A DNA stretch of 64,000 nt from Arcobacter porcinus (GTDB lineage: Bacteria > Campylobacterota > Campylobacteria > Campylobacterales > Arcobacteraceae). Positions 1 through 6,430 of this stretch are shown in pieces. Numbering within the stretch: position 1 is the first letter of the stretch; every line of letters starts with the position of its first letter. The notes beneath the pieces are model-generated. The model worked only from the letters and a program-made list of their open reading frames with translations, made no database searches and had not been told where the DNA came from. Both the position numbers and the translations under genes were made by a program. The stretch lies in contig NZ_CP036246.2 of NCBI RefSeq assembly GCF_004299785.2, positions 806,001 through 870,000 on the forward strand, given 5' to 3'.

Positions 1-1006
1 ATATTGAAGCATTTGATTTTATAGTAAATATTTGTCTAGTTTTAAACTCATCTTTTACTTGATTTGCAATATCTTTTTTAAATCTTCTAATTACTAGCCC
101 TTTATCCTTAAAATCATCTACGGAGTAGTCATTTGGATTGGCAATAGCTGTCGGGTCTAACATATTTAGAAGTGATGCAAAACTTTTTGCACTTCCGTCG
201 TGTGGTGTGGCTGAAAGCATTATAAGAGAATCACATCTGCTTGAGATTAGTTTGGCTAATTTTGATTTTTGTGAGCCACTATTTCTATCTGCAACATTGT
301 GTGCTTCATCGATTATAATAATATCCCAATAAGCTTCTTCAATATATGAACGATATAAAGCCTCTTGTTTTAGTGTATCAATAGAAATAATTGATTTATC
401 ATAATAAAAAAATGGATTCATATTTGCTGGAATTTTATTTCTAACTCTTTGAATACCTTGAGAATCAAGCCTTGTAAGTGGTATCGAAAATCTATTCCAA
501 AACTCTTTTTGAAATTGTGTAAGCATACTTTTTACTGCTAAAACAAGTATTCTTTTTCCTTTTCCTCTTTTGATAAGTTCACTTACTAAAATACCTGCTT
601 CTAAAGTTTTTCCAAGTCCTACTGCATCTGCCATAAGGATTCTTTGTCTTGCTTGATTTAGTGATTGTAAAGCTGGTTCAAACTGATAATTTACACTATC
701 CATAGCTGCTTTATTTGCTCTATGAATTTTTGTATCTGTTGGAACTACATCTTTTAAAAGTGATTCCATATAAAGAAGAGATTTTGAATAGTTAGGAGAT
801 TTGTCTATTATGAAATTTGTATTAGCTGGGTCAATTATTTCTATACCTTTTTCATAAGTAGTTAGAAATATTGCCTCTTTTCCTTTTATAAAATTTGAAA
901 CACCATCACAAGTTAGCTCGTATTGGTCATCTGCTAGTATTTCAACTCTTCTTATTTTCCATTGTGTATCTCTTATTATTACTCTTTGTCCTGGTGCAAA
1001 TCTCAT
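1..1006 (-). CDS. SNF2/HepA-like helicase, N-terminal part (cut by window edge)
   Basis: Only the first 335 residues are visible; the gene runs off the left edge. It begins at the ATG read leftward from 1006. Seen directly: a Walker A-type motif with the core GLGKT (residues 130-134), a DEAH box (233-236) and SATPHDG (265-271). Together these mark a superfamily 2 ATPase of the SNF2/RapA type. The roughly 100 residues before Walker A form a separate N-terminal region. Full-length relatives are usually near 900-1100 residues. In an integrated element such helicases are often parts of anti-phage systems (DISARM DrmD is one family of this general build), but the partner genes would lie to the left, so no system can be named. 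It is not followed closely by another gene on its 5' side (140 bp gap). Confidence 0.8.
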   Translation of the reverse strand, partial: MRFAPGQRVIIRDTQWKIRRVEILADDQYELTCDGVSNFIKGKEAIFLTTYEKGIEIIDPANTNFIIDKSPNYSKSLLYMESLLKDVVPTDTKIHRANKAAMDSVNYQFEPALQSLNQARQRILMADAVGLGKTLEAGILVSELIKRGKGKRILVLAVKSMLTQFQKEFWNRFSIPLTRLDSQGIQRVRNKIPANMNPFFYYDKSIISIDTLKQEALYRSYIEEAYWDIIIIDEAHNVADRNSGSQKSKLAKLISSRCDSLIMLSATPHDGSAKSFASLLNMLDPTAIANPNDYSVDDFKDKGLVIRRFKKDIANQVKDEFKTRQIFTIKSNASI

Positions 1007-1146
1007 ATTTAACTAGCTTTAATATCTATTAGAGCTTTCTCTCCCTATTTATAATTTTATTTAATATTATTATACTGAATATTGTTTAAGGAAAAGGTGT
1101 AAGGAAAATTTGTAAAATATTAATATTCCAGATTATTTATATAAAA

Positions 1147-1965
1147 TTATTCAACTTTAACAATTGTAACCATATCAAAAAAATCAAGATTAAGAAATGT
1201 GCTTATATTTTTAATTATCTGCATAATATATTGATTAATTATCATAATATTATATTTTACTTCATCACCTTTTGCAAAATTTGGTGTCAAAAGACTATAT
1301 GAAGTAAAATGAAGCAAGGAACTTGTCATTTCATAATTTGATTCATACTCTTTATCTAAATTTACAAGTTTTGCTTTTTTTTCCAAGTTCTTTCATCCTT
1401 TAAAAGTTTGAAAACTTGAGTATGCTGAACTCTTTGAGCAAAATACCTTTTAAACCACTCTTCTTTAGCTAATTGCTTTTGTTTATTAAGTGATAATTTT
1501 TCAAGTTCTTTAAGTTTATCTTCATATTTTTTTAATAAATCTTTCTCTAACTTTATACTTAAATATTCAAAACCATAAATTTCAACTTGATTTATAAACA
1601 TAGGTATTTCTCTTTGCGATTCAGCTTTTAAAGATTGAAATAACTTCTCATTTTCTTCTGAACTCTTTTTAAAATTAGATTTATATTTCAGTTTATTCTG
1701 CTCACTTTCTTTTAAAATTATTTCATAGTATTCTTTCTTTACAAATTTTTATTTCATTTTTTAGTCTTTTGATTATTTGGTTAATTTTATTTTCTTGTTG
1801 TTTATAAATTGAGAAATAAATTTTTGCAAAATAATTCTCTTCTTGTATTAGTAGTTTTGAAACAATTAGTGTTTCTAATATATATCTTAATGTTGAAACA
1901 TGTTTATGTAAATCATTATTACTACTAGCTAGTTCATTAATTATTTGACTTAATTTATCAATCAT
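1147..1965 (-). pseudogene. Twice-frameshifted gene, DUF5677-like (272 residues if repaired)
   Basis: Three consecutive reading-frame pieces (1965-1723, about 1750-1362, 1386-1147) read as one protein if two single-base shifts are undone. The first is one extra base in a run of five T (1746-1750). The second is one missing base in a run of eight T (1375-1382). The first and third pieces share one frame, so the shifts cancel and a 272-residue product results. The repaired protein is helical. Its N-terminal segment (with RYILETL) and a late SLLHFTSY segment recall DUF5677 proteins; that family call is by eye and weak. It may be a decayed gene, a homopolymer assembly error, or a phase-variable gene toggled at the eight-T run. 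It lies between the repressor and the helicase, on the helicase strand. Confidence 0.6.
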
Positions 1966-2091
1966 TTTAATTGTTAAATTATATTTTATATTTGTTTCTT
2001 TTGAACAGATTAATAGACTTTTATATTTTTTGAAACTGTTAAATCTTCCAACCTATATTCTCCCTCATTTCCTTTATTTTTATAAAAAGAT

Positions 2092-2814
2092 TTATTTTTT
2101 TGGAAATAAATCTTTCATATTTTTGTTACGATGTGTTCTAACCATACCAGATGTCATCTTTTCTTCCAATTTCTTAATTGTTTCCATAGGATGAGTTAAT
2201 AAAATTTTAGTTTCTTCTTCTGTGAAATTCAACTCAATATTAGCCTCAATTTCAGATTTTATTTTTTCACTAAACATTGGGTCATTTTTTATTGAAAATT
2301 GATTATATCTTTTTACTAATTCTACAAAATACTCTTTATAAGATTTTATATTCTGAAGCTCATCACTATTCTCAGATACATATTTAAAAGTATAATATAA
2401 AAAAAGAAACGGTCTATAGGGAATATGGCCTTCTAGATGAAGTGCCGAAAGAATTTTCATAATCGTTGATTTTTCATCATCTTTGCTGAATCTATTTAGA
2501 ACTTTATCGATTAAAATTTTATTTAGCTCAACATTAAGTTCGTTTTGTGGTAGTAATAAACTTAAGTCTTTTATTATTTCTTGATTGTTTTTTGATAAAT
2601 ATTCATCTTCTAAAGACAAAACCAAGGGCTCTAAGCCTAAAAATAGAAAGTTTGGATTAGCATTAAATATATCAATGTATTTTTTAATTACTGTTGTTGT
2701 AGGGTTCATTTTATCAGTTTCGTATCTTGCAATTGAAGCTTGAGTTAAACCTAACTTATCCGCAAAATCTTTTTGTGAAAGACCAATAAACTCTCTAAAC
2801 TCTTTTAAAAACAT
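2092..2814 (-). CDS. XRE-family phage-like repressor
   Basis: A 240-residue protein with an N-terminal XRE/Cro-type helix-turn-helix (about residues 13-35, around LSQKDFADKLGLTQASIARYE), typical of prophage and island repressors. The rest is an acidic helical region with no S24 peptidase motif that I can see, so LexA-like self-cleavage is not expected. It is divergent from the gene at 3002. The 187-bp space between them holds two matching inverted-repeat sites that are the natural operators. It is probably the switch that keeps the right-hand replication/excision genes silent while integrated. Confidence 0.8.
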   Translation of the reverse strand: MFLKEFREFIGLSQKDFADKLGLTQASIARYETDKMNPTTTVIKKYIDIFNANPNFLFLGLEPLVLSLEDEYLSKNNQEIIKDLSLLLPQNELNVELNKILIDKVLNRFSKDDEKSTIMKILSALHLEGHIPYRPFLFLYYTFKYVSENSDELQNIKSYKEYFVELVKRYNQFSIKNDPMFSEKIKSEIEANIELNFTEEETKILLTHPMETIKKLEEKMTSGMVRTHRNKNMKDLFPKK

Positions 2815-2894
2815 ATCTTTTTCCTTAAAATTAAAGTATTGATATTATATAGTAAAATATATTAAATTAAGTTTAATTTTAAATAAAGTCATCA

Positions 2895-2916
2895 ATAACA
2901 TATTATAGTATGTTAT
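2895..2916. promoter_or_regulatory. 22-bp palindrome, likely repressor operator 1
   Basis: ATAACATA and TATGTTAT arms flank a short centre; only one base pair of the 22-bp site breaks symmetry. It sits 80 bp upstream of the repressor start and about 85 bp before the gene at 3002. Half-site AGTATGTT recurs in the second site. Binding by the XRE protein is inferred from position. Confidence 0.55.
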
Positions 2917-2960
2917 AAAACAATTAAGCAATATCTAAGACTACTATAAGTAAACTTTCA

Positions 2961-2980
2961 ATATGTATTTACAACATACT
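2961..2980. promoter_or_regulatory. Second, weaker operator-like site
   Basis: The stretch ending in ACAACATACT carries the reverse complement of the AGTATGTT half-site found in the palindrome at 2895-2916, with an imperfect second arm (TATGTA). It lies just before a TATATT (2985-2990) and the AAGGA ribosome site of the gene at 3002, so a repressor bound here would block that gene. Confidence 0.4.
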
Positions 2981-3001
2981 AAACTATATTAAGGATATAT
3001 T

Positions 3002-3667
3002 ATGACATCTAAACAAATAGCTATGGACTTTATTGGTCGAAAAATTAAAGAGCCAACACAGATTTTTAATGATATAGATATATTTAAATCTATATTACTA
3101 TGGTGTCGTGATGCTGCAAGAGAATACTTTGCAACACAGGCAACAAAAAGATTTTTGATTGATTACATCGATGATGTAGCTCAAATTGTTGATAAATACA
3201 TGATAGATAGAGTAAGTAAGATGTATAAAAAAGCAATTAAAAATCGAAATAAACTTTTTGAAAATTTATGCTCACCACAAAAAACAATTGGATGGTTAAT
3301 AGACCGTTGGATTAATGTATTTATTAACCTAACAACAAATAAAAATTATAGAGCATATATTGATATTAAAAATCTAAATACTAACTTTTGTGATAATGAC
3401 TATAGTTTTTTAGATAATAAAATTGAAGTTGAACTTGAATTTGAAAAAGCTAAAAAATTACCAAAGTTTGAAAAGATTAAATTATTAAAGGAGGTGTGGG
3501 AAGAGGCAAGATATGATGATTTTGATGAGTATGATATGCTCTATTTGGTTGAAAAACTTGATTTAAAACTAGATGAAGTTTTTGAGAATAAAGGTGATTT
3601 AGAAAAACTAAATTTAAAAAAAGAACAAGTTGGGAACTGCCATTCGCAACTTGTGATTATATTTTGA
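3002..3667 (+). CDS. Unknown 221-residue protein, first gene of the element's right operon
   Basis: I do not recognise this protein. It is soluble-looking, with no signal peptide or membrane segment. It is rich in charged helices, with a basic first half (around YKKAIKNRNK) and an acidic second half (EVWEEARYDDFDEYD). The start ATG follows AAGGA at a 7-base spacing. It is the first gene after the repressor-controlled intergenic region, and the ATPase gene follows after 21 bp. The early-gene position suggests a role in replication or regulation of the element, for example as a partner of the RepA-like ATPase. That is inference from order only. Confidence 0.7.
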   Translation: MTSKQIAMDFIGRKIKEPTQIFNDIDIFKSILLWCRDAAREYFATQATKRFLIDYIDDVAQIVDKYMIDRVSKMYKKAIKNRNKLFENLCSPQKTIGWLIDRWINVFINLTTNKNYRAYIDIKNLNTNFCDNDYSFLDNKIEVELEFEKAKKLPKFEKIKLLKEVWEEARYDDFDEYDMLYLVEKLDLKLDEVFENKGDLEKLNLKKEQVGNCHSQLVIIF

Positions 3668-3688
3668 TTACCATAGGAGGAAAACAAA

Positions 3689-4882
3689 ATGATTGATATT
3701 ATATCAAAAATTGAGACTATAAAGTATAGTGTTTTTAAAAAAGAACAACAAGTTAATAAAATAAGGGAACTAGAAGAACTATTAGAAAATCCATTTGTCG
3801 ATCAAGATGATATTAAAATAATTAAAAATAGAATTTTAGAATTACAAAATGAATCTTCAAACGATCTTGTAAGAGGTATTAATAAATTAAAACAATTTAG
3901 ACTGAATTCTAATAAAACTTCTCACATAGATGATGAAGTTCAATTTATATACCCAAATCTTATTGAAGTTGGTAAAACTATAATGTTTTTTGGAGAAAGT
4001 GGCATTGGTAAGACATTGTTTATTTTAGCCTTCGCAAATTATGCCTTAATAAATAAAAATATTAAAAGTGTAATTTCTCTAGATTTTGACAATGGGCTTA
4101 AAAGTTTAAAAAAACGTAAATATGATGAGCTTGCTGAAAAATGGGGAGAAGGTGTATTTGATTATATAATTGGTAGTGAAATAGTACAAGAAATGGAACC
4201 TCTTAATGTTTTAAAAGAGTTAATTTTGGATGGTGAAAATAATAGAGATAAAATGATAATAATTGATAGCGGTTCACATTTTGTATATGATGGTACTAAA
4301 AATGAAAGGCAAAGGTTAAAAGAGTTTATTGATATTGTTAGAATGTTAAAAACACAAGGTGCAACTCCTATAATCTGTCATCATAGTCACAGAGTTCGAG
4401 ATGGACAAATAGCTGATTACCATGGGAGTTTTGAATGGAAACGGGATTTAGATTATCAATTCCTTATTACAAAAAATGAAGATACTAATACTTGGCTTTT
4501 TCATGTTAAAAAAGATAGAGATAATTTAGTTGAATCTAAAGCTTTTAAGTATGATGAAGAAAATATTTTACCAATTGAAGTTTCATTTGAAGAATCTAAT
4601 TTCACAAAAAAAGAGTTGATTTTTATTAAAGAAATTCAAGAAATTTTAAAAGATTTCAAGGAAAAGATAAATCAAACTGAACTATTAAAAGAGAGTAAAG
4701 CATTTAGGCAATCATTAGGATTAGGTGAAAAAAGAAGTATAAAATGGCTTCATTTATTTGCAGAAAAAGGAATGTGGTGTTATGAAAAAGTTTCAACTCA
4801 GAATAATTCAATCTTTTATTGGTTAAATAATAAAGTGAAAAACCAACAAAACTTGCCAAAGTATGATTTCAAGGATAAATAA
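3689..4882 (+). CDS. RepA-like AAA ATPase (RecA-fold, AAA_25 type)
   Basis: A 397-residue protein with Walker A GESGIGKT (102-109), Walker B MIIID (189-193) and an HHSHR segment after a beta strand (231-235). This layout is typical of the hexameric RepA/DnaB-like RecA-fold ATPases found in plasmids, satellites and prophages. The first 95 residues contain a charged predicted coiled coil. The C-terminal 100 residues look like a helical winged-helix region (around KINQTELLKES). Expected role: helicase or helicase loader in replication of the excised element. A strong ribosome site AGGAGG precedes the ATG. It overlaps the next gene by one base (TAATG), so the two are translationally coupled. Confidence 0.8.
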   Translation: MIDIISKIETIKYSVFKKEQQVNKIRELEELLENPFVDQDDIKIIKNRILELQNESSNDLVRGINKLKQFRLNSNKTSHIDDEVQFIYPNLIEVGKTIMFFGESGIGKTLFILAFANYALINKNIKSVISLDFDNGLKSLKKRKYDELAEKWGEGVFDYIIGSEIVQEMEPLNVLKELILDGENNRDKMIIIDSGSHFVYDGTKNERQRLKEFIDIVRMLKTQGATPIICHHSHRVRDGQIADYHGSFEWKRDLDYQFLITKNEDTNTWLFHVKKDRDNLVESKAFKYDEENILPIEVSFEESNFTKKELIFIKEIQEILKDFKEKINQTELLKESKAFRQSLGLGEKRSIKWLHLFAEKGMWCYEKVSTQNNSIFYWLNNKVKNQQNLPKYDFKDK

Positions 4883-5124
4883 TGAGCCAAACTGAATATT
4901 TTGAAATAAAAAACTTACTTTTAGAAACTAGGGAAAAGCTAGAAAAATTAGAGCTTTTGATTCCAGAAAAATTTGAAATTTCATATGTATCACAAAAAAC
5001 TGGTTTGACTAGACAAGGAGTACGAAAAAAACTATATGTAAATTATGAGCCTGAAGTTGATTTTTGGTACGAAGGTGGTAAAATATTTTTATCACAAAAA
5101 GTTGCTCTTCAAATGCTAAAATGA
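4882..5124 (+). CDS. Small helix-turn-helix protein, AlpA/excisionase-like
   Basis: An 80-residue protein with a short N-terminal helix and a MerR/AlpA-type helix-turn-helix (residues 36-51, VSQKTGLTRQGVRKKL), followed by a wing ending in a basic strand. Small proteins of this build placed directly before an integrase usually act as excisionases or activators of integrase expression. It starts on the last base of the ATPase gene, and the integrase GTG follows 10 bp after its stop. The assignment as excisionase is inferred from size, fold and position. Confidence 0.65.
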   Translation: MSQTEYFEIKNLLLETREKLEKLELLIPEKFEISYVSQKTGLTRQGVRKKLYVNYEPEVDFWYEGGKIFLSQKVALQMLK

Positions 5125-5134
5125 GGAGTAAGCC

Positions 5135-6280
5135 GTGAATGAAAGTATTAATTGTAGCGATGGTTCTTTTTATGAAAGAGGTGGTCGAATATATGTTCAG
5201 GCAACTGTTAATGGAAGAACTATCAAAAAATCTACTGGAAGAAAAGTTAATTCAATTAATAAAACTTGGATGAAAAAACAAAATCCAAGTGATGTTCTTT
5301 TAAATTTATTAGGTGTTGAAAAAGAGAAAAAATTACAAGATGTCTCGATTGAAAATTATGGCCTTAAAATAATAAATGCAACTTCAGGGGGCAGGGGTAT
5401 TGAAACGCAAAAAGATTTTGTGAGAATTTTGGAAAAGACTATAGTTCCTTTTTTTAAGCTATATAAACTTAAAGATGTTAAAGTAATAGATATTTTAGAG
5501 TTATTAAAGCGTGCAGATAATAAGTTTTGTAACGATAGGGCCAAGAGAGTAAGATCTATATTAAATTTAATTTTCACTTCAGCTTTTGAAGAAGGTTTAA
5601 TTGATAAAAATCTATTTTCTATGCAAATTTTAAAAAATCATAAGTTTAAAAGAAAACCAAGAAAAACTAAAGCTTATAATGTTTCTGAAATGAAAATTAT
5701 ACTTGATAATTCAAGCGGATGGTTAAAATTATTTTTTGAACTATCTTTTAAATATGGACTTAGAACTGGTGAGACTATGGGGCTTAAATGGACTGATTTT
5801 GATTTAGAAAAAGGATATTTTAGAATTCAAAGAAGTATATCCAAAGGTGTAATAACTGAATCATCAAAGATTATTCATGAAAATAAAAATCATTTAAGAG
5901 ATATTTATTTGTTTCCTGAAACTTTGGAGCTATTAAAAAAATATTCTAATTTTAAACCTAATGATGAGTGGTTATTTGTTACGAAAACTGGAGAACCTTT
6001 TATGCAGTGCGATACCATACGAAATTATCATGTAAAACCATTTTTAAAAAAAATAGGAGTTGAATATAAGACAGTATATGCAACCAGAAGAACTTATGTA
6101 AGTATAATGAGACAATCTGAGAAGATTCAACTTGAAGATATTCAAGAAGTGGTTGGTCATCAAAAAGGCTCAAATATTACGGATAAGCATTATAACATTG
6201 ATGTTCTAGAAAACTCTCACAAAGTTAAAAAAGCAGAAGAAAAGGCTAGGATTTTCAATGATATATTAAGTATGGCTTAG
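5135..6280 (+). CDS. Tyrosine recombinase / phage-type integrase
   Basis: A 381-residue protein that catalyses site-specific integration and excision. Visible catalytic residues: Arg210 in GLRTGE, box II Arg318 in YATRRT, Gly-His 341-342 in VVGHQKG and nucleophile Tyr353 in ITDKHYNI. The usual box II His is Tyr315 here, a variation known in some phage integrases. An Arm-type N-terminal domain (roughly 10-60) and a SAM-like core-binding domain (roughly 70-165) precede the catalytic domain. The start is GTG with AGGAG seven bases before it. Its 3' end is 120 bp from the partial tRNA, which it presumably recognises as attachment site. Confidence 0.92.
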   Translation: MNESINCSDGSFYERGGRIYVQATVNGRTIKKSTGRKVNSINKTWMKKQNPSDVLLNLLGVEKEKKLQDVSIENYGLKIINATSGGRGIETQKDFVRILEKTIVPFFKLYKLKDVKVIDILELLKRADNKFCNDRAKRVRSILNLIFTSAFEEGLIDKNLFSMQILKNHKFKRKPRKTKAYNVSEMKIILDNSSGWLKLFFELSFKYGLRTGETMGLKWTDFDLEKGYFRIQRSISKGVITESSKIIHENKNHLRDIYLFPETLELLKKYSNFKPNDEWLFVTKTGEPFMQCDTIRNYHVKPFLKKIGVEYKTVYATRRTYVSIMRQSEKIQLEDIQEVVGHQKGSNITDKHYNIDVLENSHKVKKAEEKARIFNDILSMA

Positions 6281-6300
6281 GCCATGCTTATCTTAACAAT

Positions 6301-6335
6301 TTCTCAATTTTTTCTCACTTGAGAAAATTTTATTT
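6301..6335 (+). terminator. Probable terminator after the integrase
   Basis: Arms TTCTCAA (6301-6307) and TTGAGAA (6319-6325) enclose an 11-base loop and are followed by a T-rich tract (AATTTTATTTTT). It lies 20 bp after the integrase stop codon. Confidence 0.5.
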
Positions 6336-6400
6336 TTAAACACCTATAAAAGGCACTTTGAACTTTACCATTCTTTCTTGAGGTGGTAGTGGCAATAGCT

Positions 6401-6430
6401 GTGAGGGTTCAAGTCCCTCCATCTGCACCA
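6401..6430 (+). repeat. tRNA-Leu 3' fragment, right attachment site (attR)
   Basis: The 30 bases include a complete T arm (GAGGG, loop TTCAAGT, CCCTC), the 3' acceptor strand CATCTGC and ACCA. The matching 5' acceptor GCAGATG, D arm and anticodon arm are absent upstream. The acceptor strand and T arm match what I recall of tRNA-Leu in this group. This is the duplicated 3' end left by integrase-mediated insertion into a tRNA gene whose intact copy lies left of the window. Confidence 0.75.

Follow-up and report, generated by a model that had tools for sequence, protein, structure and literature searches.

What kind of element ends at a partial tRNA-Leu(GAG) gene, and what becomes of a host whose tRNA gene has been broken? 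These questions are raised by the window analyzed here, a 64,000-bp stretch of Arcobacter porcinus (assembly GCF_004299785.2, hereafter G000; contig NZ_CP036246.2, hereafter C1; G000:C1:806001-870000) from a single-contig genome of 2.02 Mb. We found that window positions 1-6384 are the right end of a mobile island that measures 42,057 bp from core to core and whose left end lies at G000:C1:770291. From sequence comparison, we consider it highly probable that the island is a site-specific element that splits tRNA-Leu(GAG), brings a substitute for it, and carries an ARMADA type II cargo.

The host tRNA-Leu(GAG) gene is interrupted in its anticodon loop at CTTGAGGT (Table 1). When the joined tRNA was used as a query, only two matches were returned from the G000 genome, and these are the two halves; put together, they are recognized as a tRNA-Leu(gag) with 7/7 acceptor pairs. 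A second match to the tRNA end, at C1:1146223, was discarded as a 22-bp chance match at a place without a tRNA. The preliminary description had proposed integration into a tRNA-Leu gene and had pointed to related genomes for an empty site. Such a site is present in a relative (G026), where the joined G000 flanks align unbroken at 94% over 1,339 bp, and where the uninterrupted tRNA gene sits between the same neighbors as in G000, namely tex and a 168-aa hexapeptide-type gene (carbonic-anhydrase-like, judging from a reading of its sequence). Integration in tRNA-Leu is therefore borne out by both the two halves and the empty site. The right end, with its integrase and tRNA 3' fragment, is also as first described, except that the fragment is one half of the tRNA and begins within the anticodon loop.

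Table 1. Features of the right end of the island (window coordinates) and of parts lying further left (contig coordinates)
Feature	Position	Strand	Remark
armA (SNF2/BrxHII-like helicase), N-terminal part	1..1006	-	48% identical to E. coli ArmA, full length
Three short ORFs (79, 79, and 80 aa)	1147..1965	-	Perhaps a decayed gene
XRE-type repressor	2092..2814	-	Divergent from the integrase operon
221-aa protein	3002..3667	+	No family found
RecA-fold/AAA ATPase, 397 aa	3689..4882	+	
Small HTH-like protein, 80 aa	4882..5124	+	No Pfam family
Tyrosine integrase, 381 aa	5135..6280	+	In the tRNA-Leu(GAG)-splitting clade
Putative right arm-type integrase sites (TTTCTCAA, TTTTTTCTCACTT)	6300..6320	+	Matching left pair beyond the rescue tRNA
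Crossover core CTTGAGGT	6377..6384	+	Also present at the left end
3' half of the split host tRNA-Leu(GAG)	6377..6430	+	Starts in the anticodon loop
5' half of the split host tRNA-Leu(GAG), GCAGATGTGGTGGAACGGTAGACACGCTATCTTGAGGT	G000:C1:770291-770328		Left of the window
Element-borne complete tRNA-Leu(GAG) (rescue tRNA)	G000:C1:770339-770423		Left of the window
Overlapping operon starting with armA	G000:C1:784506-807006		Mostly left of the window
armA, complete ORF (938 aa)	G000:C1:804190-807006		Crosses the window edge

At the left boundary, an intact tRNA-Leu is present, as had been anticipated, but it is not a rebuilt host gene; it is a substitute brought by the element (the rescue tRNA). 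The host 5' half stays beside the host promoter, and the complete second tRNA-Leu(gag) starts 11 nt past the CTTGAGG of this stub. In an ordinary tRNA island, the host gene is made whole again by a 3' part carried in attP, and the tRNA at the left would then be this restored gene; the element does have an intact tRNA on one side and a fragment on the other, in the manner of Islander-type islands (PMC4383910). We regard this as extremely improbable, since the host 5' half persists as a separate truncated stub in G000 and in ten other elements, the intact tRNA downstream of the stub has a 5' half of its own and shares 85% identity with the host tRNA of G000, and the identity shared at the junction spans 8-9 bp only. 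A shared core of 8 bp cannot restore the host tRNA, and hence the host gene is destroyed. The locus therefore combines a short core within a tRNA gene and two half tRNAs that are not rebuilt with a complete tRNA-Leu(gag) carried by the element, which is the arrangement of tRNA-dependent integration. Rfam gives 47 tRNAs for G000; of those whose anticodons were read with ARAGORN, the element copy is the sole GAG tRNA, and the other leucine tRNAs have the anticodons CAA, TAA, and TAG. Because tRNA-Leu(UAG) might read the same codons, dependence of the host on the GAG tRNA is not certain.

The complete tRNA could instead be a host paralog that lies outside the element and adjoins the target by chance, and it is indeed next to the host stub and of the same isotype. 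Three observations argue against a paralog. First, the empty site in G026 holds one tRNA only. Second, elements in G344 and G222, which belong to different families and have different stubs, share both the rescue tRNA and the spacer. Third, the left arm-type sites of G077 and G344 lie beyond the tRNA. A neighboring paralog is thus very improbable, and we retain the reading of a tRNA that belongs to the element.

The same anatomy was seen in 11 elements from three families, with related islands across Campylobacterales. When 104 genomes of the family were searched with the integrase, its homologs led to five further elements of about 10-20 kb; members from other families are G344 (30 kb), G222, and G332, and further members are G024 and G101 (the two ends are on different contigs in each of G024, G101, and G332). 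Joining the two halves gives a tRNA-Leu(gag) with 7/7 acceptor pairs in 11/11 elements, compared with a mean of 5.5 for mixed halves. The 11 integrases make up one clade (support 100/100); related integrases that end at other places, among them a tRNA-Met 3' half, fall outside it. The spacer from core to tRNA is 11-45 nt in 10/11 elements and 105 nt in G078, which carries a second stub derived from the rescue tRNA of that same element. Compared with the tRNA of the host in which each is found, rescue tRNAs show 70-85% identity, and pairs from different hosts are nearly or fully identical (G344/G222 and G078/G057, 100%; G000/G025, 98%; G012/G008, 96%). The tRNA therefore travels with the element.

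We also scanned a species collection for a stub followed by tRNA-Leu(GAG). The 38 matches comprise 14 clear stubs, one odd tRNA copy, and 23 that were rejected as a chance CTTGAGG ahead of an intact tRNA. Records with clear stubs are named Campylobacterota lineages, Aliarcobacter and Halarcobacter among them, bar one labeled Cloacimonadota (NVVD01000001.1, L095), which carries the stub and tRNA pair and is perhaps mislabeled. The pattern had no match in the viral_contigs collection, and the matches returned by a plasmid search with the left end look like mere tRNA similarity.

The motif TTTTCTC[AG][CG] forms a tandem pair at each end of the G077 and G344 elements and occurs nowhere else in them; in G000, the left end has two copies plus an inverted one nearby, and the right end has a single copy, where 1.9 would be expected by chance in 42 kb. 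The left arm-type pair is located beyond the rescue tRNA, so that the tRNA gene is part of attP, with the core on one side of it and the left arm sites on the other. Elements of the G012-type branch differ in their end repeats (TGCACA type), and the arm-site analysis was less extensive there. A host promoter box, TATAAT, stands 27 bp ahead of the stub and is unchanged in the empty site. The 11-nt spacer of G000 is too short for a promoter, and the sole promoter-like match has a -10 box that touches the tRNA. With the tRNA thus placed behind the stranded host promoter and the 5' stub, we infer that it is expressed by capture of the host promoter. It would then be released from a stub-tRNA transcript by tRNA processing; the predicted folds of such transcripts count against this reading, with the rescue acceptor stem kept in 4/10 only.

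We suggest the following course of events. The tyrosine integrase would recombine the element into the host tRNA-Leu(GAG) gene at its anticodon loop, and the element brings a complete tRNA-Leu(GAG) of its own shortly behind the core, inside attP. Precise excision would restore the host gene, whereas imprecise loss would remove the only GAG tRNA.

A target-like tRNA beside the integration site might itself be attacked, and a single base pair may bear on this. In 11/11 targets, pair 30-40 is T or C with G (Y-G), whereas the rescue tRNAs of these elements have G-C in every one (the G024 copy is cut by a contig end, and the stem that it shows has the same G30-C40). This stem-preserving change would perhaps spare the rescue tRNA from its own integrase: with G30-C40 in place of the Y30-G40 of the targets, it may be a poor substrate, a step that we hold with less certainty than the others. 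There is, however, nearly an even chance that G30-C40 goes back to ancestry or tRNA performance and has no role in evading the integrase. The elements share a common descent, and G30 is also found in 10/38 unoccupied Arcobacteraceae hosts. On the other hand, the rescue tRNAs have several different stems, all with G30-C40, and the difference from the unoccupied hosts is significant by Fisher's test (1.2e-5, or 1.7e-4 with eight counted as distinct, relatedness being not fully removed in either). G30 is seen in 0/11 targets (p = 0.09). In addition, a host-like stem is kept in elements of other lineages (G461, G409, G469, and G463), and two of these carry nested stubs. The second stub of G078 is either a counter-example to strict self-immunity or a 71-bp duplication.

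What remains when an island decays can be seen in three genomes. G025 has a decayed stub and no integrase of the clade, and its rescue tRNA is the sole intact match; G460 has a decayed 3' half; and in G051 the stub has decayed to 22/32 bases, a value that exceeds the best of 2,000 shuffles (18) and the best of 21 other loci (17). The tRNA is retained in these decayed surroundings, and a foreign tRNA can therefore outlive its island. No stub remnant above background was found in other G30 hosts (G031, G033, G035, G058, and G059), where an old replacement was sought. We tentatively propose, at somewhat less than even odds, that the islands swap the host tRNA for an integrase-resistant version that is silent when circular, activated by the host promoter, and protected at pair 30-40, and that they thereby drive turnover of tRNA alleles in Campylobacterota. 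If this is true, the host keeps the foreign tRNA once the rest of the island decays, and mobile elements would have a concrete route to replace a tRNA gene permanently. The same idea makes a single base pair the falsifiable explanation of why the integrase of an element would leave the replacement tRNA alone.

In the window, the gene order reported earlier (integrase, HTH, ATPase, 221-aa protein, divergent XRE, and SNF2 helicase) is present in full. Two details changed. The helicase, which was thought to lack half of its length, is an intact ORF that merely crosses the window edge, and the "broken gene" next to it is in fact a set of three short ORFs with no meaningful match in the loci tested. 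The small HTH-like gene precedes the integrase in all six elements compared, and we infer that its product is a candidate excisionase. An ATPase homolog occupies the same position in the G077 element. The left half of the island contains a transposase gene split by an IS3-type insertion (L005:1470-4112) and a second recombinase-like gene (L005:8021-9037).

The preliminary description saw a satellite-like layout in the gene order. The repressor, ATPase, and integrase do form a compact block with a divergent repressor, and the element could be a phage satellite of the PICI or P4 kind; E. coli ARMADA does occur on satellite-like elements (PMC12458937). That proposal was drawn from gene order only, and no satellite hallmark was found. 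Among the proteins scanned (some small ORFs fell outside the scan), there is no recognized satellite replication gene and no packaging or capsid-remodeling gene. Phage integrases are at most about 27% identical among the matches listed, the ATPase has one weak phage hit, and the integrase lies at the far end from the repressor. We therefore think a satellite unlikely, and we continue to treat the island as a site-specific integrative element. It does not class as a temperate phage either: in agreement with the earlier reading, structural phage genes are absent among the proteins scanned. Relaxase and T4SS genes are likewise absent among the G000 proteins scanned, and FtsK-like proteins were found only in G012 and G078.

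Defence genes had been suspected to the left of the window, and they are there, in the operon that armA starts. The operon encodes, in order, a 938-aa SNF2 helicase (armA), a 1610-aa methyltransferase (armB), a 1084-aa DEAD helicase, a 544-aa AriAB-like protein, a 572-aa AlbA_2 protein, a 2050-aa YprA-like helicase (armC), and a 696-aa UvrD helicase (armD). The first, second, sixth, and seventh proteins match ArmA, ArmB, ArmC, and ArmD of E. coli ATCC 8739 over their full length (48, 42, 36, and 45% identity, respectively). The Walker, DEXH, and NPPW motifs, which are needed in E. coli ARMADA according to the available text of Bell et al. (PMC12458937), are present in the G000 Arm proteins, and inspection of the sequence indicates a RelE-like N terminus in armD, as in ARMADA type II. 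The cargo is thus not an undescribed defence system, as had been thought possible, but ARMADA type II, reported in 2025 in that paper, with three extra genes; it would benefit the host as a phage-defence cargo. DISARM, with which a comparison had been suggested, was rejected. For DISARM class 1 (drmD and drmMI with drmA, drmB, and drmC), the DrmD model stays below its cut-off (342/610 bits), and the 2050-aa helicase is of the Druantia/ARMADA type, with ArmC as its best E. coli match.

The arm order is kept in G000, and its three extra genes intervene between armB and armC. The available text of PMC12458937 describes the order of the arm genes as strict and mentions none in the armB-armC interval. 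We compared this interval in G000, G004 (L212/L213), G141 (L214/L215), G190 (L216), and G143 (L217/L218). All have extra genes, and these differ in each genome, so that the interval looks like a variable slot; Campylobacterales members with such a slot are thereby added to ARMADA type II. Among related elements, G077 and G344 carry type I restriction with AbiE (G344 being assigned by similarity to G077 and by ORF reading), G008 has methyltransferases with an HNH protein, G078 has cytosine methyltransferases, and G012 has a NACHT protein. From ORF reading, a pair of RecQ-like helicase and DprA-like genes (L084:15303-18526) stands between hsdR and hsdM of the G344 type I restriction operon. A similar pair, assigned in the same way, occupies the armB-armC slot of G004 and G141, and the pair may be a module that enters defence operons.

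The closest precedent is tRNA-dependent lysogeny, the principle of which was shown experimentally in actinobacteriophages (Fionnbharth and others) in 2024, and which, from the available text of that report (PMC10865867), follows the same working strategy. In Fionnbharth, however, the tRNA is elsewhere in the phage and has a strong promoter of its own, whereas in islands of the G000 type it lies inside attP, directly behind the core, with no visible promoter. The known cases are phages of Actinobacteria, in contrast to the non-phage defence islands of Campylobacterota, and the available text does not mention a 30-40 difference for actinobacteriophages. The Pasteurellaceae elements ICEPmu1 and ICEMh1 (PMC6028734, PMC6861422) also split a tRNA-Leu in the anticodon loop, with remnants at both ends and an intact tRNA-Leu at one element end; unlike G000, in which no conjugation genes were seen, they are large and conjugative, use a different isotype, and carry resistance cargo. 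Anticodon-loop islands of the Islander set (PMC4383910) share the crossover in the anticodon loop, the integrase at one end, and a tRNA fragment that marks the end, but the attP fragment of G000 does not regenerate the host tRNA. Islands at the 3' end of a leucine tRNA have been reported in A. butzleri, not in these terms (PMC2147049). In a literature consisting mostly of papers outside subscription, no paper was found that describes the Campylobacterota family, a rescue tRNA located within attP, capture of a host promoter, or a difference at pair 30-40. The tRNA inside attP, the likely promoter capture, the 30-40 difference, and the use by Campylobacterota defence islands thus appear to be new. 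They would extend tRNA-dependent integration, shown mainly in actinobacteriophages so far, to defence islands of another phylum, and the simple design, with a tRNA inside attP beside a host promoter, is open to direct test.

Several further loci show other arrangements of tRNA fragments. In G075 (L018) and G458 (L136), elements with related integrases terminate in the 3' half of a tRNA-Met that is cut in its anticodon loop; the left ends of these elements were not found on their contigs. Nested arrays of tRNA 5' stubs occur at L157:330-640 (G461), at L152:1550-1830 and 6090 (G409), and in L092 (G456), which suggests repeated integration in elements of other integrase lineages. In G009 (L091, C8:112001-124000), a tRNA-Leu(GAG) copy is cut in the T-loop (~2150), with a complete copy 5.7 kb further on (~7829); this is another kind of element at the tRNA-Leu(GAG) gene. 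Lastly, in a Candidatus Gracilibacteria record (L108), a complete tRNA-Leu(GAG) is preceded by the 5' part of a tRNA-Leu whose D-loop contains a hairpin-like insert.
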